DNA of 64,000 nucleotides from Amycolatopsis cihanbeyliensis (GTDB lineage Bacteria > Actinomycetota > Actinomycetes > Mycobacteriales > Pseudonocardiaceae), in the NCBI RefSeq assembly GCF_006715045.1, contig NZ_VFML01000001.1, positions 682,001-746,000 on the forward strand, read 5' to 3'. Position 1 is the first letter of the stretch, and every line of letters starts with the position of its first letter. The notes under the pieces were generated by a model. That model was not told the DNA's origin. It was given only the letters and a program-made list of their open reading frames with translations, and ran no database searches. Positions 8,238 to 58,798 of this stretch are shown in pieces. The translations under genes were made by a program, and so were the position numbers.

Positions 8238-9668
8238 TCACAACGGCGTATCGAACACCCGGAATCCGCCCGGCCTGGCCTCGGCGAGGTGCAGCCGCTG
8301 CCGGAGCACGTGCGGCCCGGCCAGCTCGACATCCCCGCGGGGCAGGTCGGCGCGGAGCCGTCGCAACTCGCCGGCCACCCCCTGCTGGTCGCCGCCGCGC
8401 AGGTTGCGCACCGCCGCCGCGTACAGCAGGACCGCCTCGTACACCGCGGCCGACATCGAGGACACCGGCGGCGCCCAGCGGCCGAAGGCCTCCCGGTATC
8501 GGGCGAGTAGTTCCTTGTTGCGCCGGGTGGGAAGTTGCTGGAAGTAGCCGAGCGAGGTCCACAGGCCGGCGGCGGCACGATCACCCATCCGCTCCCGGGT
8601 GGACTCGTCCAGCAGCAGGGAAAGGGTGCGGCAGCGGTCTCGCAGGCCCATTTCCAGACTCTGCTTCTGGAAGGCCACCTCGTCGGCTCCGGCGAGGGTG
8701 GACAGGACGAGATCCGCGCCCGAGCGCATGATGTCCTCGATCACCCGCGTGAAGTCCCGAGTGCCGAGCGGGACGTACCGCTCGTTCACGATCACGTTGC
8801 CGCGCTCCGGCAACACCACCCGCGCCGCGGCGTGCGCCCCGTGCGACCAGGAATAGTCGTCGCCCACCAGGAACCAGTGCCGCGCCCCGGTGTGCCGCAT
8901 GAACGGCGTCGCGGCCGCCCGCAGCTGATCGGCAGGCCGCTCGCCGAGCCGGAACACGTGGCCCGGTCCCGCACCGCCCTCGTTGATCACGGCATGTACC
9001 AGAGGTATGCCCTCGCCCTCGACCGCATGCTGCACGGCGGTGAAGGTCGCCGAGGTGACGCTGCCGAGGAGCACCCGGCAGCCTGCGCGCAGCAGGCGAC
9101 GTGCCTCCATCGCACCCACCTCGGGACTGGTCGCGTCGTCGCCGACGAGCAACCGCACCCGGCTGCCATCGAGGCCACCCTCGGCGTTCAGCTCGTCCAC
9201 CGCGAGTTCGGCAAGGTGCTCGCAGCCGATGGTGGACACCGCGGCGGGGCCGGACTGGCTGGTCAGCAGGCCGATCCGGTGCGTGCCGTCATCCTCCGGT
9301 TCCGCGGCCGGCCAGCCGCAGCGGCGGGCCAGCCACTCGACGCCGCCGTCCTCGACCTGGGCAGTGAGCCGGACGGTGGTCCATCCCGCGGCGGCGGGTT
9401 CGAAAGCCACCCGCAGGCGGCCGCGCCAGGGCTCGTCGTGCGCCACCACGATGCGCCGCCCGGGCACGATCCCGCTGATCCGACCTAGTATCTGCACCGT
9501 GTGACCGTGGCGGCCGCGGCCGACCGGCAGGTTGAACGTCACCGCCGAACCGACCGCGAGCCGATCGCACTCGGCGTCGAAAACCCATCCGGAGCCCCGG
9601 CCGGTACCGAATAGACTGAACACCTCCCCCGGGGTGGCCGCGATCGACTCCTCGGCCGAGAGCACCAC
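8238..9668 (-). CDS. SRPBCC domain fused to a type I periplasmic-binding-protein domain (cytoplasmic ligand sensor?)
   Basis: About 476 residues. Residues 1-120 look like an SRPBCC/Bet v1-type cavity domain (AESIAATPGEVFSLF start, later an FEP-x-G-x-T-x-V strand pattern). From about 130 (GLLTSQSGPAA) to the end it resembles a Leu/amide/urea-binding type I periplasmic-binding fold, as in AmiC or UrtA. There is no signal peptide or lipobox and no permease or ATPase nearby, so it should be cytoplasmic. GTG at 9668 is chosen because AGGAG, partly inside the stop codon of the upstream ArsR gene, lies ten bases before it; TTG at 9677 is too close to that site. Coupling to ArsR suggests a regulatory role. 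Confidence 0.8.
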   Translation of the reverse strand: MVLSAEESIAATPGEVFSLFGTGRGSGWVFDAECDRLAVGSAVTFNLPVGRGRHGHTVQILGRISGIVPGRRIVVAHDEPWRGRLRVAFEPAAAGWTTVRLTAQVEDGGVEWLARRCGWPAAEPEDDGTHRIGLLTSQSGPAAVSTIGCEHLAELAVDELNAEGGLDGSRVRLLVGDDATSPEVGAMEARRLLRAGCRVLLGSVTSATFTAVQHAVEGEGIPLVHAVINEGGAGPGHVFRLGERPADQLRAAATPFMRHTGARHWFLVGDDYSWSHGAHAAARVVLPERGNVIVNERYVPLGTRDFTRVIEDIMRSGADLVLSTLAGADEVAFQKQSLEMGLRDRCRTLSLLLDESTRERMGDRAAAGLWTSLGYFQQLPTRRNKELLARYREAFGRWAPPVSSMSAAVYEAVLLYAAAVRNLRGGDQQGVAGELRRLRADLPRGDVELAGPHVLRQRLHLAEARPGGFRVFDTPL

Positions 9669-51665: not shown

Positions 51666-52023
51666 GCCGACAACGCCGGGCGGGAAATCACCGCAGGTAG
51701 CCATAATAGACCACATCGTCACGAATGCGGTACGTCACCGTGTGGTTGTCACCAGCTCGCAACGCTCCAGGAAAACGAATTCCCAACCGTCGCTGTAGGT
51801 TGCTCTCTGTTACGACCAGGTCTCGATTGATCCATTTGTATGCCCGGATTGTTTACTTTCTGTCGAAATTCCGGCCGAGGAGCGGGTAGGTTCCAGACAA
51901 ACGACGACACGGGCGGGCGCGGCCGTTATCCGTTCCACGGCCGCACCATCCGGCACGCACGGCGTGCGCGGTCCATCCGGCGCCGGTAATGGCGCTGTGC
52001 CGCCCCTCGAACGGAAGGTGATC
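51666..52023. other. AT-richer intergenic stretch before the second betaine operon
   Basis: No intact gene. On the minus strand a 54-codon open frame without a start codon (about 51688-51855) ends HTVTYRIRDDVVYY-x3-LR, vaguely like the end of a RelE/ParE-type toxin, so it may be a relic. The rest should contain the promoter of the operon. Confidence 0.4.
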
Positions 52024-53082
52024 GTGACTGCCATACGAACGGAAGGGCTCTACAAGATCTTCGGCCGTCGTGCCGATGAGGCGCTGCGCAAGCTGTCCGA
52101 TGGCGCCAGCCGCGAGGACGCCGTCGCTCTCGGCACCACTCCGGCCGTCATCGACGTGACGTTCGAGGTCAAGCCCGGCGAGATCTTCGTCGTCATGGGC
52201 CTGTCCGGATCGGGTAAGTCCACCCTCATCCGGATGCTCAACGGCCTGCTGACCCCCACCGCGGGGCACGTCTACGTCGGCGGCGAGGACGTCGCCGCCC
52301 TGGAGGCCGGCGCGTTGCGCGCCCTGCGCAGGGACCAGATGAGCATGGTGTTCCAGCATTTCGCGCTGCTGCCACACCGGACGGTGCTGGAGAACGCCGC
52401 CTACCCACTGAAAGTGCGCGGGGTGCCGACCACCGAGCGCGCGGAGAAGGCGAAGGCCGCGCTGGAGATGGTCGGCCTCGCCGGGTGGGACGACCGGCTG
52501 CCGCAACAGCTCTCCGGCGGGATGAAACAGCGTGTCGGGCTGGCAAGGGCGTTGGCGGCGGAGACCGACATCATGCTGATGGACGAGGCGTTCTCCGCGC
52601 TGGACCCGCTGATTCGCCGCGAGATGCAGGATCAGCTGCTCGAACTCCAGCACCGGCTGAACAAGACGATCGTGTTCATCACCCACGACCTCAACGAGGC
52701 GATGCGTCTCGGCGACCGGATCGCGATGATGCGCGCCGGCAGGGTGGTGCAGGTCGGCACGGCGGAGACGATCCTGCGGGAGCCCGCCAACGACTACGTC
52801 GCCCAGTTCGTGCAGGACGTCGACCGCGCCCGGGTACTGACCGCGTCCGCGGTGATGGAGCCCGCCGAGGCCGCCTCCCCCGGCAACGGTCAGCCGACCG
52901 TGCCGGCCGACGCACTGCTCATCGACGTGTTGCCGCTGTCGGGGCAGAGCACGTTGCCGGTCTCCGTCCTCGGCGACGGTGGGCGCCAACTCGGTGTCAT
53001 TCACCGCGAGACGCTGCTGCGCGCCATGTCCGCGCCGGCCGAGATCCGGCAGGGCGAGGGAGGGGAGGTCAGCCATGGATGA
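52024..53082 (+). CDS. Glycine betaine ABC transporter ATPase, second system
   Basis: 352 residues, ProV/OpuAA type. [36 protein letters not shown] (Ala in place of the usual Pro after Glu, as in many ProV) and ITHDLNEAM. A degenerate CBS-like tail follows about residue 285. GTG at 52024 after GGAAGGTGA. Overlaps the permease gene by eight bases. Independent of the 361 gene: same family, clearly diverged. Confidence 0.93.
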   Translation: MTAIRTEGLYKIFGRRADEALRKLSDGASREDAVALGTTPAVIDVTFEVKPGEIFVVMGLSGSGKSTLIRMLNGLLTPTAGHVYVGGEDVAALEAGALRALRRDQMSMVFQHFALLPHRTVLENAAYPLKVRGVPTTERAEKAKAALEMVGLAGWDDRLPQQLSGGMKQRVGLARALAAETDIMLMDEAFSALDPLIRREMQDQLLELQHRLNKTIVFITHDLNEAMRLGDRIAMMRAGRVVQVGTAETILREPANDYVAQFVQDVDRARVLTASAVMEPAEAASPGNGQPTVPADALLIDVLPLSGQSTLPVSVLGDGGRQLGVIHRETLLRAMSAPAEIRQGEGGEVSHG

Positions 53083-53929
53083 ATGGCGTATACCGGTCGG
53101 TGAATGGACCGAGGAGGCCATCGACTGGCTGCAATCGGTGTTGGGTCCGGTCTTCGAGTTCGTGCGCGAGGTGCTCCTCGGCGCCTACGAGAACCTCGCC
53201 GACCTGCTGCAGTTCCCCGCGGCGTGGGTGATGATCCTGATCCTCGGCGGGCTCGGCGTGCTCGCCAGGGGGCTGGTGTTCGGCATCGGCAGCATCGTCG
53301 CGCTCCTGCTGATCCAGCTGATGGAGCAGTGGCCGAACGCCATGCAGACCCTCGCGCTGGTGATCGTGTCGGTGGCGGTCGCCGGAGTGCTCACGGTGCC
53401 GATCGGCATCCTCGCCGCCAAGTCCCGGATGGTCAGCAGCATCGTGCGGCCGGTGCTGGACTTCATGCAGACGATGCCGCCACTGGTCTACCTCATCCCC
53501 GCCGTCGTGATCTTCCAGGTCGGCGTGGTTCCCGGCATCATCGCGACGATCATCTTCGCGATGCCGCCCGGCATCCGGCTCACCGAGCTGGGAATCCGGC
53601 AGGTCGACCCGGAGGTGGTGGAGGCGGGACACGCCTTCGGCAGCTCCCCCGGCAAGATCCTGCGGCACATCCAACTTCCGCTCGCCCTCCCGACGATCAT
53701 GGCCGGCATCAACCAGGTGATCATGCTGGCGCTGTCCATGGTGGTGCTGGCCGGCTTCGTCGGCGGCCCCGGGCTGGGCCAGGAAGTGCTCTCGGCCATT
53801 TCCCGAGTGGACGTCGGCCTCGGCATGGAGGCCGGCCTGTCCGTGGTGATCCTCGCGATCTACCTGGACAGGGTGACCGCGGCCCTCGGGGCCCGGTCCG
53901 CTGTCGCGCGCCAGGAACAGGTGGCGTGA
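53075..53929 (+). CDS. Glycine betaine ABC permease, second system (ProW/OpuAB-like)
   Basis: 284 residues, single ProW unit with about six membrane helices. FMQTMPPLVYLIPAVV and the EAA loop VEAGHAFGSSPGKILRHIQLPLALPTIMAGINQ are typical. ATG at 53075 with GGGGAGG upstream. Contrasts with the double-length permease at 1437. Confidence 0.93.
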   Translation: MDEWRIPVGEWTEEAIDWLQSVLGPVFEFVREVLLGAYENLADLLQFPAAWVMILILGGLGVLARGLVFGIGSIVALLLIQLMEQWPNAMQTLALVIVSVAVAGVLTVPIGILAAKSRMVSSIVRPVLDFMQTMPPLVYLIPAVVIFQVGVVPGIIATIIFAMPPGIRLTELGIRQVDPEVVEAGHAFGSSPGKILRHIQLPLALPTIMAGINQVIMLALSMVVLAGFVGGPGLGQEVLSAISRVDVGLGMEAGLSVVILAIYLDRVTAALGARSAVARQEQVA

Positions 53930-54002
53930 CGTGTCATTACCGAAGTCACAACGCGGGTATCGCGCAGACATTGAGTCAGATGCCCAAGGAGGGACGAGTT
54001 AC

Positions 54003-54932
54003 ATGAGCAACGTCAGTAAGGCGGCGCGGCTGACCGCCGTCGCCGCCACGGCCTTACTGGTCCTTGCGGCCTGCGGTGGGGACGACGGGGGTGACGCAGG
54101 CGGTCAGACCGACGGCGGCGGTGACGGCGCGTTGGCGGGCAAGGACATCACGATCGGCGTGTTCAGCGGTTGGGAGGAGGGCCTCGCCGCCTCCTACCTG
54201 TGGGGGCACATCCTCGAGGAGGAGGGTGCCACGGTCGAGTACCAGACCGCCGACCCCGGGCCGATCTACTCGGGCGTCGCGCAGGGGCAGTTCGACGTCG
54301 GGTTCGACGCCTGGCTGCCGGCCACGCACGAGGACTACTGGGCCGAGCACGGCGAGAAGCTCGAGGATCTCGGCACCTGGTTCACCGACGCGCCGCTGAC
54401 CATCGCGGTGAACGAGGACGCACCGATCCAGTCGCTCGACGAGCTCGCGGGCGCGGCCGACCAGTTCGACAACCGCCTGGTGGGCATCGAGCCGGGCGCC
54501 GGCCTGACCCGGATCACCAAGGAGGAGGTGATCCCGACCTACGGTCTTGACGACATGCAGTTCATCGAGTCCTCGACGCCCGCCATGCTCGCCGAGTTGG
54601 AGGGCGCGATCGACAGCGGCAAGAACGTCGTCGTCACCCTCTGGCGCCCGCACTGGGCCTACGACGCGTTCCCGATCCGGGATCTCGAGGACCCGCAGAA
54701 CGCGCTCGGCGACCCGGAGGAGATCCACTCCTTCGGCCGCGAGGGTTTCGCGACCGACTTTCCCGAGGTCGCGAAGTGGATCGGCAACTTCACGATGACC
54801 GACGAGCAGCTGCACTCGCTGGAGAAGATCATGTTCTTCGAGAACGACGGCGAGGACAACGAGAAGTCGGTCGACACCTGGTTGCAGGACAACCCGGACT
54901 TCATCAGCAACCTGAAGGCGGGAAACCTGTAA
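54003..54932 (+). CDS. Glycine betaine-binding lipoprotein, second system
   Basis: 309 residues. Lipobox Cys24 (LAAC) then a ProX/OpuAC-type fold: ITIGVFSGWEEGLAASYLWGHILEEEG, VGFDAWLPATHEDYW and NVVVTLWRPHWAYDAFPI, with the Trp residues expected for the betaine cage. ATG 54003 after AAGGAGGG. Third gene of the operon, followed by a strong terminator. Confidence 0.93.
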   Translation: MSNVSKAARLTAVAATALLVLAACGGDDGGDAGGQTDGGGDGALAGKDITIGVFSGWEEGLAASYLWGHILEEEGATVEYQTADPGPIYSGVAQGQFDVGFDAWLPATHEDYWAEHGEKLEDLGTWFTDAPLTIAVNEDAPIQSLDELAGAADQFDNRLVGIEPGAGLTRITKEEVIPTYGLDDMQFIESSTPAMLAELEGAIDSGKNVVVTLWRPHWAYDAFPIRDLEDPQNALGDPEEIHSFGREGFATDFPEVAKWIGNFTMTDEQLHSLEKIMFFENDGEDNEKSVDTWLQDNPDFISNLKAGNL

Positions 54933-55015: not shown

Positions 55016-56032
55016 ATGTCCGGTATGGCGCCACCGCCGCTGCACGTCATGACGGCCGCCGAGGTGTCGAGGGTGGTGGAAGGCGATCGGCAGGGTGCGC
55101 TCGACGCGGTACGCGGCGCGTACCTGGCGCACCACCGCGGCGACACCGTGAATCCGCACTCCAGCTTCCTGCGCTTTCCGCGGCGGGAACGGGACCGGAT
55201 CATCGCGCTGCCCGCGTACCTCGGTGACCAGCAGGAGGTCGCCGGAATCAAGTGGATCGCCAGCTGGCCGGGCAACACCGCGCAGGGTATACCGCGCGCC
55301 TCGGCCATGTTGATCCTCAACGATATGGCCACCGGCTACCCGTACGCGATGCTGGAGTCCTCGATCGTGTCCGCCACCCGCACCGCGGCCTCGGCCGTGC
55401 TGGCCGCCGAGGAGTTGCTCGGCGGGCGGGAGGCGAAGCGGGTGGGCTTCATCGGCACCGGCCTGATCGCCGAGCATGTGCGCCGGTTTCTCCGCGACCT
55501 GGACTGGAGGATCGGTAGCTACCGGCTTTTCGATCTCGACCCCGCGGCGGCCGCGCGATTCGGCGAGACCATCGGCACGGACGGGGGTGCCGAGGCACGG
55601 GTGTCGGAGGACGCCGCCGGGGCGTTCGCGGACGCCGATCTGGTGGTGATCGCGACGGTGGCGGGCGAGCCGCACCTGGTCGATCCGGACCTGCTGGCGC
55701 AGGCGCCGGTGGTGTTGCACCTCTCGCTGCGTGACCTCTCCCCCGAGCTGATCCTGGCGTCCACCAACGTCACCGACGACGCCGATCACGCGGTACGGGA
55801 ACGGACCTCGCTGCACCTGGCCGAGCAGCGAACCGGAAACCGTACGTTCGTGCACGGCACCATCGGCGAGGTCCTGGACGGCACGCTGCGCCCGGTGCCC
55901 GGCCGGGCCACGGTGTTCACCCCGTTCGGGCTCGGCGTGCTGGACCTCGCCGTCGGCCGGTGGGTGCACGACCGGCTCACCGCGCAGGGCGGTGGCCTGC
56001 CGATTCCCGGATTCTTCGACGCCACGGAGTAG
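55016..56032 (+). CDS. Ornithine cyclodeaminase / mu-crystallin family enzyme (SbnB-like)
   Basis: 338 residues. NAD-binding motif GFIGTGLIAEHVRRFL near 145, substrate segments GIKWIASWPGN and MATGYPYAMLESSIVSATRTAA. The last is typical of the ornithine-cyclodeaminase/alanine-dehydrogenase fold, and the SWPGN form recalls SbnB (diaminopropionate precursor synthesis). No SbnA-type partner is present, so its amino-acid substrate is open. ATG 55016 follows a weak GGGGAAGGGG. Ends two bases from the convergent acyltransferase gene. Confidence 0.85.
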   Translation: MSGMAPPPLHVMTAAEVSRVVEGDRQGALDAVRGAYLAHHRGDTVNPHSSFLRFPRRERDRIIALPAYLGDQQEVAGIKWIASWPGNTAQGIPRASAMLILNDMATGYPYAMLESSIVSATRTAASAVLAAEELLGGREAKRVGFIGTGLIAEHVRRFLRDLDWRIGSYRLFDLDPAAAARFGETIGTDGGAEARVSEDAAGAFADADLVVIATVAGEPHLVDPDLLAQAPVVLHLSLRDLSPELILASTNVTDDADHAVRERTSLHLAEQRTGNRTFVHGTIGEVLDGTLRPVPGRATVFTPFGLGVLDLAVGRWVHDRLTAQGGGLPIPGFFDATE

Positions 56033-56034
56033 CC

Positions 56035-57864
56035 CTACGGCTGCGGCTCCCCCGTGGCCAGCAGCTCGCGGAGTTCCTCGACCGCGACCGTGAGCTGGCG
56101 GGCGAAGGCGAACATCTGCTCCGCGACCGGTCGCGGCGTGCTCAGGTACAGGTTCCACCGCTGCGGCAGCAGCACGTACGCGACCCCGATGCAGGTGCCG
56201 CTGGTGGACCCGAAGCCGAAGTACTGGATATGGGTCGACGGGGCCGAGCTGGTGCTCAGGTAGTCGTTGCGCATGATGGTCCAGCCGGGGCTGTCGTACA
56301 GCGCGAGCGGCTCGGTCGCGCCCAGCGGCTCGCCCTCCCGCTGCTGGATCAGTTGCAGCTCCCACAGGTGCTGCTCGGGCGCCTGCCCCTGCTGGCACTC
56401 CTTGGCGCGGGAGACGTGCTTGTCGGCGGCCGCGCGGAACGCGGCCCTGCGGGTGGCCGGATCGGTGCCGGGATCCTCCATCGCGGCCACGAATCGCAGT
56501 ATCTCGGGGGTCACCACGCGCATGGCCTCGGTGCGCCCGTTCTGGTACTGCCGGGTGGCGATCGACTCGTAGGTGGCGCCGGTAACTCCCTTGGAACGCC
56601 GGTGCGCGAGCTGGTAGGCCAGCTGCGCGAAGGCGTCCGGCGAGCAGCGCAGCCCCTTGATCTGGTCCGCGCCGAAGTCGAACGACACCGTGGTGGTGGC
56701 CGTGTCGGCCGCGTAGGCGGCGAACGCGGCGCCGGCGGCCCGTACGTCCGCCCGCAGCTCGTCGTCCAGCACGAACTCCACCGGATCCACCGCGGGCATA
56801 CCCTGCGTCCGGGCGCCGGACCGTGCCGAATGTTCCCGCGCGGGCGTGCTCAGCAGGGTGTCCACGAAGCTGAGGATCGTGGTGCCGTCCAGGCCACAGT
56901 GCTCCACGTTGATCCCCGCCGTGCCGTCCGCGAAGACGATCAGCGAGACCGCCTTGTCGAACCACCGGTTGCCGCTGTCCCCGTGCAGCAGCTGGTCGCA
57001 GGCCTGCTGGGTGCTCTCCGGGGCGAAATCCTCGAGGCACACGCAGAACAACGCGCCCTCCACGGCCTCGAGTGCGTCGGCGTTTCCCCGTTCCGCCGCC
57101 AGCAACGCCTGCCTGCTCGCCGCCCACTCGGCGCGGGCCTTGGTGGTCAGGTGCCCGACCGCGTCCTCGGTGTCCGCGCGCGCCGCGCCGGCCTTGAGCA
57201 CCGAGCGGAGCCCCGCCGCGAGGTCGTCCAGGGTGTACGGGTGCCCGTCCGGACCCAGCACGTCCAGCCGGAAGATGTTGCCGCGGAAGAACACGGCGAT
57301 ATGGCGTGCCGAAGCCGGACCCGGCCGCTCCGCGCTGTACGGTGCACGCACGGTGTCCTGGACCGCTCCGGGGATCCGGGTGGTGGAGAACAGGAACTTG
57401 TGCTGCTCCATGGAATGCGCGGCACCACGCTGCACCACCGGGGGGATCGACTCCTGGTCGAGCAGCTTCTTGTAGCCCACCGCCGCGGCGACCAGCCCGG
57501 CCGCCCGCTCGACCTGCCCCTGATCCGACTCCTGGAACAGGAAGAAGAAGTTCGCGTTCAGCGCGATGCGGTCCCGCCTGCCGAGATACCGGGCGGGCCA
57601 GAACCGGTCCAGCCAGCTGCGCACACCCTCGGACGCGTCGTACCGCTCGAGCTCGGCATGCAGTGCGCGGGCCGCGCTGTCGGGCCGGAGGAACTCCGCC
57701 ACCGCCGCCCCGGTTCGAGCCCGCTCGTCCTCGGTCAGCAGGGGTTCACACCATTCGAGGAACCTCGTGCAGCTGTCCTCGAGGGTGGGTAGCGGCACGC
57801 GCGGCAGGCGGTCCTCGTTGCCGAAGGTACGGGTGGACCATTCCGGGCTGCTGTTCACTGTCAT
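56035..57864 (-). CDS. Choline/carnitine O-acyltransferase homologue
   Basis: About 609 residues, close to eukaryotic carnitine acetyltransferases. N-terminus LPRVPLPTLEDSCTRFLEWCEPLL follows the family opening. The catalytic His322 is in GINVEHCGLDGT, and the Ser/Thr-rich substrate/carnitine motif YLSTSSAPSTHIQYFGFG is near residue 540. The CoA-binding and second-domain blocks (FDFGADQIKGL, YESIATRQYQNGRTEAMR) are present. The family moves acyl groups between CoA and a hydroxyl of carnitine or choline; it is uncommon in bacteria. ATG 57864; two-base convergent gap with the cyclodeaminase-like gene, 37 bp after the 2OG oxygenase gene. Confidence 0.9.
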   Translation of the reverse strand: MTVNSSPEWSTRTFGNEDRLPRVPLPTLEDSCTRFLEWCEPLLTEDERARTGAAVAEFLRPDSAARALHAELERYDASEGVRSWLDRFWPARYLGRRDRIALNANFFFLFQESDQGQVERAAGLVAAAVGYKKLLDQESIPPVVQRGAAHSMEQHKFLFSTTRIPGAVQDTVRAPYSAERPGPASARHIAVFFRGNIFRLDVLGPDGHPYTLDDLAAGLRSVLKAGAARADTEDAVGHLTTKARAEWAASRQALLAAERGNADALEAVEGALFCVCLEDFAPESTQQACDQLLHGDSGNRWFDKAVSLIVFADGTAGINVEHCGLDGTTILSFVDTLLSTPAREHSARSGARTQGMPAVDPVEFVLDDELRADVRAAGAAFAAYAADTATTTVSFDFGADQIKGLRCSPDAFAQLAYQLAHRRSKGVTGATYESIATRQYQNGRTEAMRVVTPEILRFVAAMEDPGTDPATRRAAFRAAADKHVSRAKECQQGQAPEQHLWELQLIQQREGEPLGATEPLALYDSPGWTIMRNDYLSTSSAPSTHIQYFGFGSTSGTCIGVAYVLLPQRWNLYLSTPRPVAEQMFAFARQLTVAVEELRELLATGEPQP

Positions 57865-57901
57865 CCTCTGCGATCGACGGGGTTTGTTTCCGAAACGATT
57901 T

Positions 57902-58798
57902 CTAGTCAAGCAGTTGGTCGCCGCGGACCGCGCGGCGTTCGGCGGCGAGATGTTCTGGCAGGACCCGGCCGAACAGCTGCCGGGTCCGTGCCACGCTGCC
58001 CACCACGCCCGGCCGCTCGCTGTAGGCGAGGATCGCCGAGTGCCGAGCCGTCTCGCCGCGCACCGGCGTGACGCGATGCAGCGAGTACCGCCCCTTGAAC
58101 AGCTGGAGGTCGCCGGGGCGCAGGGTCAGCCGCCGGATGGCGCGCTCACCGCGGCCGTCCAGCACCGCACGGACGTCGGGAAAGTTCTCCGCCCGCGCGG
58201 ACCGGATATTCGGGCAGTACTCGAACACTCCACCTTGCTCGGACTCTTGGGTCAGCAGGCTCACCGTGAACTCGTTGGTGTCGAAGTGCCAGGGATGGGA
58301 CAGTCCCGGTGAGATCACGTTGAGGCACAGCTTCGACAGCGGGTCGGCGAGCTCGTGAATCTGCGGGAGCTCGAAGCAGGCGGCGATAAAGCATTGGAAC
58401 TCCACGCTGCGGTACAGCTGGTGGATAATAGAATGTGACGGTATGTGGTCATGCGCGACGAACGCATTTCCACGTTCCATTGTGGTGCGACCGGGATGGT
58501 CCGCCGGCAACGGTGTGTCCGTCGCGATGTTGTAGGCGTTGACCACCTCCATGTCGTCGTGCGCGAGCGGCGCGATCTCGGCGCATTCCCGCCGGAGTTC
58601 GTCCTGCAACTCGGGACGGATGAAATCGGGGAGCACGCTGCATCCCACGTCCCGCAGCTCGCGATGGACCACGGAGACGATTTCCGCCAACGCCGTACCC
58701 GCCGGTTCCGCGAGCGGGTAGCGATCCGTGTCCACCACCCCGCCGACCCGCCCACTCTCGGCGATGTCCGACGGGAACGACGATCCGTGCGTTGTCAA
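57902..58798 (-). CDS. 2-Oxoglutarate/Fe(II) oxygenase (HalD/BesD-like fold)
   Basis: 298 residues. The facial triad is His171-x-Asp173 ... His241 (HPWHFDTNEF; KGRYSLHRVTP), so the Asp ligand is kept, as in hydroxylases and unlike the halogenases of this fold. The block TLRPGDLQLFKGRYSLHRV plus LAYSERPGVVGSVARTRQLFGR is characteristic of the free-amino-acid-modifying branch I recall. TTG at 58798 is chosen because GGAGG lies eight bases upstream; the frame opens at 58843. Same strand and 37 bp from the acyltransferase, so probably co-transcribed. Confidence 0.87.
   Translation of the reverse strand: MTTHGSSFPSDIAESGRVGGVVDTDRYPLAEPAGTALAEIVSVVHRELRDVGCSVLPDFIRPELQDELRRECAEIAPLAHDDMEVVNAYNIATDTPLPADHPGRTTMERGNAFVAHDHIPSHSIIHQLYRSVEFQCFIAACFELPQIHELADPLSKLCLNVISPGLSHPWHFDTNEFTVSLLTQESEQGGVFEYCPNIRSARAENFPDVRAVLDGRGERAIRRLTLRPGDLQLFKGRYSLHRVTPVRGETARHSAILAYSERPGVVGSVARTRQLFGRVLPEHLAAERRAVRGDQLLD

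Follow-up and report, generated by a model that had tools for sequence, protein, structure and literature searches.

A conserved actinomycete gene set pairs a carnitine-acyltransferase homologue with a HalD/BesD-fold oxygenase and, usually, a methyltransferase

An oxygenase gene (OX) and a choline/carnitine acyltransferase homologue (CAT), neighbours in a 64,000-nucleotide stretch of Amycolatopsis cihanbeyliensis DNA (contig NZ_VFML01000001.1, positions 682,001 to 746,000; hereafter the window), belong to a gene set that recurs in many genera of actinomycetes, most often with the gene of a SAM-dependent methyltransferase (MT) between them. We propose, with a probability of about 0.5, a dedicated small-molecule pathway, OX-(MT)-CAT, which has OX and CAT at its centre and follows the same logic as carnitine metabolism. 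Its starting compound would be small and amino-acid-like; the gene set probably hydroxylates it first and then attaches a short acyl group, in most hosts with the help of the methylating enzyme. This resembles the making and use of carnitine in animals, though the parts are unrelated or altered. The initial annotation of this DNA did not include the three-gene unit and had suggested a two-step pathway: a pathway common to OX and CAT is supported, but the two steps are incomplete, since the usual unit includes a methyltransferase of which no match turned up in the window's genome.

In the window, OX is the first gene of the pair and CAT the second, both on the minus strand. CAT (56035..57864) encodes 609 residues, counted from the ATG at 57864. 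Its assignment is based on the PF00755 profile, on alignments to CrAT and CPT2 and on residue counts; the profile scores 536.8 bits (cut-off 22.3) and is covered from position 1 to 572 of 574, and His322 and the STSS motif are both present, as expected from the earlier description of a nearly full-length enzyme. OX (57902..58798) encodes 298 residues if translation is counted from the TTG at 58798, the stored protein (P0001) beginning at a shorter start. It is identified by PF23169, the HalD profile (55.3 bits, cut-off 26), by its predicted fold (AF2/Foldseek) and by its invariant residues. PF23169 is the sole Pfam-A family that OX matches at E 0.001, which leaves it outside the BBOX/TMLH family, and no NCBIfam model matches OX or CAT at the same threshold. 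The gap between the two genes (57865-57901) measures 37 bp, as first annotated. Among the best 120 of 4546 matches to OX, the closest one with a name comes from Amycolatopsis aidingensis (89% identity), and among the best 120 of 1702 matches to CAT the closest other protein is 86% identical.

Most knowledge of carnitine acyltransferases comes from eukaryotes, and CAT had been called unusual in bacteria. This is true of the phylum as a whole, where PF00755 was detected in 5 of 396 genomes (one of the five being a short fragment, E 4.5e-5), and of the control genomes, none of the 14 having it, but it does not hold within the window's own genus, where 60 of 80 genomes carry CAT. Strong OX matches (E 1.1e-111 or better) are found in these same 60 genomes, and one extra OX relative, 31% identical, occurs in genome G009. 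A neighbourhood search in relatives had been chosen beforehand as the check on the claim that the two enzymes share a pathway, and it revealed a conserved co-occurrence. In a sample of 200 genomes of the family, CAT is present in 69, and in 67 of these OX lies upstream on the same strand, within 1.1 kb in 66 cases and at 1189 bp in one. None of the 131 CAT-less genomes of the sample has a close OX; G631 has a relative 38% identical and two others have weak matches. The association gives a Fisher p of 1.6e-51 when relatedness is ignored (two weak pieces from G579 are left out of the table). Likewise, OX is upstream of CAT in all 80 loci inspected, the best 80 of 112 confirmed, whose hosts include Amycolatopsis, Saccharopolyspora, Streptomyces, Actinomadura, Nocardia and Frankia, among others. 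That OX and CAT function together is thus well supported. The two exceptions of the family sample (G519 and G552) have CAT and no close OX; in its place, an amino-acid-permease-type gene precedes CAT by about 10 bp. This arrangement is seen at L152:7323-10389 and L153:7181-10241, where hydroxylation may have been replaced by import.

The third gene came to light through the length of certain CAT relatives. Fourteen of the 120 listed (the best 120 of 1702 matches) have about 900 residues, and the N-terminal part of three of these contains VLD(I/V)GCSYG, a motif of SAM methyltransferases. MT is encoded in the same operon, between OX and CAT and on the same strand, in 73 of the 80 loci (best 80 of 112 confirmed), with median flanking gaps of 54 and 59 bp (the largest being 271 and 1646), which rules out a fixed two-gene pathway. 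In three loci (L023, L025 and L170) a single frame free of stops runs through MT and CAT; the fusion at L170:8019-10694 has 891 residues by gene calls. A fourth suspected fusion, at L049, was not borne out by the reading-frame check. The place of MT varies among the 69 CAT genomes of the family sample: 43 have it between the other two genes, 5 have it after CAT and 2 have it unlinked, and in 19 it was not found. That the gene order changes while the linkage is kept speaks for a functional tie. Of the 60 CAT genomes in the genus, 53 encode MT at one place or another. MT without CAT is met in 3 of the 56 MT genomes of the genus and in 7 of the 57 tabulated in the family sample, and the gene contexts of these MTs offered no further clue.

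The MT model, made from the L021 protein (pLDDT 87.8), shows the Rossmann-type fold of a class I SAM methyltransferase. Its structural neighbours are methyltransferases of different kinds, N- and C-methyltransferases among them, and since the fold is generic and its neighbours mixed, N-methylation is a putative activity. A sequence search against solved structures returned nothing significant, no Pfam family scored above its cut-off for four MTs and two relatives, and no NCBIfam family was found for the one relative tested. In this MT differs from the glycine, sarcosine and dimethylglycine methyltransferases of betaine synthesis, with which it shares the use of SAM.

MT is not a constant partner. 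The window's genome gave no MT match, and MT is not beside CAT in 26 of 126 CAT rows, one of which is a distant outgroup (L128), while two others (L122 and L162) have MT elsewhere in the genome. Six MT-less Streptomyces have only an MT relative 35-43% identical elsewhere in the genome. On the tree of 125 CAT rows, the presence and absence of MT requires at least 13 changes, and no CAT column tracks it at a 75% threshold (in an earlier set of 105). Because of these repeated changes and the lack of a tracking column, methylation may not be what defines the substrate.

The active site of OX was examined by aligning 22 sequences. H171-x-D173...H241 and R252 are invariant in all of them, which makes OX of the hydroxylase rather than the halogenase type; the glycine that replaces the Fe-binding Asp in halogenases appears in none of the 22, all having D173. 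The AF2 model is of moderate confidence (pLDDT 79.5). The closest folds are those of HalB, HalD, BesD, HalA and the lysine hydroxylase Hydrox (best Foldseek E 8.1e-14), and the first 41 Foldseek rows all belong to the HalD/BesD family. The HalD/BesD-fold oxygenase with a hydroxylase Asp that had been read from the sequence is therefore confirmed. The nearest solved structures (6nie, 9oer, 7u6i, 7u6h and 7jsd, covering BesD, HalA, HalB, HalD and Hydrox) are only 16-20% identical to OX; they hold lysine, ornithine or glycine, some having no substrate in their title. OX shares with Hydrox the Fe triad with its Asp, and differs from the BesD group by an insertion of its own around N87-N90.

In BesD, the substrate carboxylate is contacted by R77, H137 and W241 and the amine by D239, D143 and E123, according to a 2026 report on BesD (PMC13244439). 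R77, H137, E123 and D143 were mapped to OX by motif spacing and alignment column among seven canonical members; no counterpart could be assigned to W241 or D239, and L188 was left out of the comparison. Of the mapped contacts, the carboxylate pair is conserved as R109 and H168, in 22 of 22 OX sequences, while two acids that hold the ammonium group are replaced, E123 by L154 in 22 of 22 and D143 by T174 (a Lys in P0004). With the Arg and His kept and these two acids lost, the substrate is probably a carboxylate with a cationic end other than a primary ammonium, and a quaternary amine would fit.

The residues of CAT were counted in 125 close rows (122 distinct sequences) plus the outgroup L128, that is 126 rows and 123 distinct sequences, L129 having been dropped for want of a CAT match. 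Positions were assigned by alignment to human and mouse CrAT and CPT2, with a presumed offset of 21 residues in the CrAT numbering. The catalytic His (H322) and S537-T538-S539 are present in all 125 rows, the fourth residue of the STSS motif (537-540) being Ser in 121 and Ala in 4. The equivalents of Tyr452, Thr465 and Phe566 are also invariant in the 125, and the equivalent of Lys423 is kept and that of Lys419 lost. CAT thus resembles CrAT and CPT2 in its full-length fold, its catalytic His and these conserved residues, and differs from them in being bacterial and in sharing an operon with an oxygenase. We take the STS motif and the Phe566 equivalent to face a trimethylammonium group.

These features weigh on the strongest of the alternatives, in which OX would hydroxylate a free amino acid and CAT would O-acylate the hydroxy-amino acid, MT making a later or side modification and no quaternary amine being involved. 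The retention in OX of the carboxylate pair of free-amino-acid enzymes agrees with this account, as do the failure to find MT in 19 of the 69 CAT genomes of the family sample and in the window's genome, and the fact that no CAT column separates MT-less from MT-bearing members. Yet OX has lost two acids that contact the ammonium of lysine in BesD, CAT keeps the STS and Phe566 equivalents with their presumed role, and three loci have MT and CAT as a fusion. We regard it as a possible but rather unlikely explanation.

Two other positions of CAT bear on its specificity. The position of CrAT Arg518, a residue that presumably binds the carboxylate of carnitine, is Gln498 in the window's CAT and Gln in 125 of 125 rows, whereas it is Arg in human and mouse CrAT, in CPT2 and in the OX-less outgroup. 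CrAT Met564, which we take to be an acyl-pocket position, corresponds to Phe549, with Phe in 124 rows and Trp in one. The absence of the carnitine-carboxylate Arg makes carnitine itself an unlikely substrate of CAT; if the assumed roles are correct, a lost carboxylate contact and a narrow acyl pocket point to the transfer of a short acyl group onto a carnitine-like but different alcohol as the likeliest reaction. Two proposals of the initial annotation lose ground here, namely gamma-butyrobetaine or carnitine as substrates and the use of longer acyl-CoAs.

The outgroup L128 (L128:8516-10204) is a distant actinobacterial CAT, 27% identical to that of the window, with neither OX nor MT beside it. 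Its residue at the Arg518 position is still Arg and that of the acyl pocket is Ala, so that it is possibly a true bacterial carnitine acyltransferase.

A genuine carnitine pathway would have MT trimethylate GABA, OX serve as a gamma-butyrobetaine hydroxylase unrelated to the known one, and CAT act as a carnitine acyltransferase. The three genes do match the three steps, the carboxylate site is kept in OX and a betaine/choline-type importer is encoded in the window, but the invariant Gln at the Arg518 position runs counter to it, and we judge it improbable. The parallel with eukaryotic carnitine biosynthesis (trimethyllysine to gamma-butyrobetaine to carnitine, with BBOX) extends to a methylated amine, a 2-oxoglutarate-dependent hydroxylation and an acyl transfer to the hydroxyl. 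It does not extend to the proteins, OX matching PF23169 only in Pfam and CAT having no carnitine Arg.

The pathway that we favour can be laid out as follows, the order of the steps, the N-methylation, the identity of the substrate and the length of the acyl group being those that we infer. In most hosts, MT would methylate an amino acid to give a betaine-like compound, OX would use 2-oxoglutarate and O2 to hydroxylate an unactivated carbon of this compound, and CAT would then load the resulting hydroxyl with a short acyl group (probably an acetyl) taken from CoA. MT-less hosts, including that of the window, would obtain a quaternary or otherwise finished amine by import or by another route. 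We also entertain, more tentatively, the idea that OX-MT-CAT is a separately evolved bacterial counterpart of the carnitine system, in which a hydroxylated betaine, made de novo from an amino acid, would be reversibly acylated with short chains and serve as an acyl buffer or an acylated compatible solute; were it true, actinomycetes would possess such a buffer or solute distinct from carnitine.

In the window, a possible source of the amine is encoded next door, on the plus strand, by a betaine/choline-type ABC importer. It consists of an ATPase of the ProV subfamily (51964..53082; TIGR01186, 359.9 bits, cut-off 326.6), a permease (53069..53929; PF00528, with TIGR03416 at 295.9 bits, below its cut-off of 363) and an OpuAC-type betaine/choline substrate-binding protein (53931..54932; PF04069, 191.7 bits, the best NCBIfam model, TIGR03414, being below its cut-off). 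Between the importer and CAT lies a convergent gene for an SbnB-like dehydrogenase of the ornithine cyclodeaminase family (55016..56032, plus strand; TIGR03944, 397.7 bits, cut-off 326.9), whose stop is 2 bp from the CAT stop on the other strand. By tblastn, the importer and the SbnB-like gene are near CAT only in the window and at L108, in its nearest relative (G001), among 127 loci. Their absence from the other 125 rules them out as general parts of the operon.

Other MT-less loci have neighbours of a similar bent. L112 has a methyltransferase fusion and metK beside OX-CAT, the glycine/sarcosine half of the fusion scoring above its cut-off and the sarcosine/dimethylglycine half below. ectABC is near L156 and L157, and BADH-like and choline-dehydrogenase-like genes accompany L160 and L161 (two of those at L160 were tested, both falling below NCBIfam cut-offs). 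Altogether, betaine- or ectoine-type neighbours, counting the permease of L152 and L153, are present in 9 of 26 MT-less rows versus none of 100 MT-bearing rows. The choice of families was made post hoc, and one background locus in 20 matches as well; an independent-pairs test of neighbours against MT loss was not significant (6 pairs, median p 1). For these reasons such neighbours are not upheld as an explanation of MT loss, and we keep them as hints of a quaternary-amine substrate that MT-less hosts would obtain from elsewhere.

The same neighbours could be taken to mean that CAT is a choline-type acyltransferase, that OX acts on something else, for instance the acyl part, and that choline or betaine is the solute common to all. 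CAT has no carnitine Arg, a trait that we assume it shares with choline acetyltransferase, and the importer, the BADH-like and choline-dehydrogenase-like genes and the glycine/sarcosine methyltransferase fusion all point the same way. But the neighbour count suffers from its post hoc choice and its failed independent-pairs test, and a hydroxylase would be superfluous for choline, whereas only 2 of 69 CAT genomes are without a close OX. We give this scheme little credence. Still less do we favour the tailoring of a carrier-bound or larger natural product. Both HalD-fold enzymes and CAT domains are found in natural-product pathways, but in a non-exhaustive annotation of the neighbours of 80 loci (the best 80 of 112 confirmed), no cluster other than the three genes themselves is found in more than 32. 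Finally, that OX and CAT are neighbours by chance is ruled out by the co-occurrence and adjacency counts (OX in all 60 CAT genomes of the genus and in 67 of the 69 of the family sample) and has a negligible probability.

The combination of CAT with a BesD-type oxygenase and a methyltransferase, in an operon common to many actinomycete genera, suggests a metabolite not yet described and a new class of substrates for both the oxygenase and the acyltransferase families. In the literature searched on the operon and on bacterial carnitine synthesis, whose coverage lacks most subscription papers and so does not establish absence from print, no description of it was found. The operon is short enough to be reconstituted in vitro, which makes the question directly testable.

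Two further loci carry relatives of MT. At L124:7930-10813, a relative 38% identical to MT lies beside what appears by eye to be a metK-like gene, with an unassigned protein that has an HxD motif (by eye, and no Pfam match) and, further on, an EamA-type transporter. The Streptomyces locus L147 has an MT relative (8413-9288) and also a stretch that shows 50% identity to a portion of L112's glycine-betaine methyltransferase fusion.
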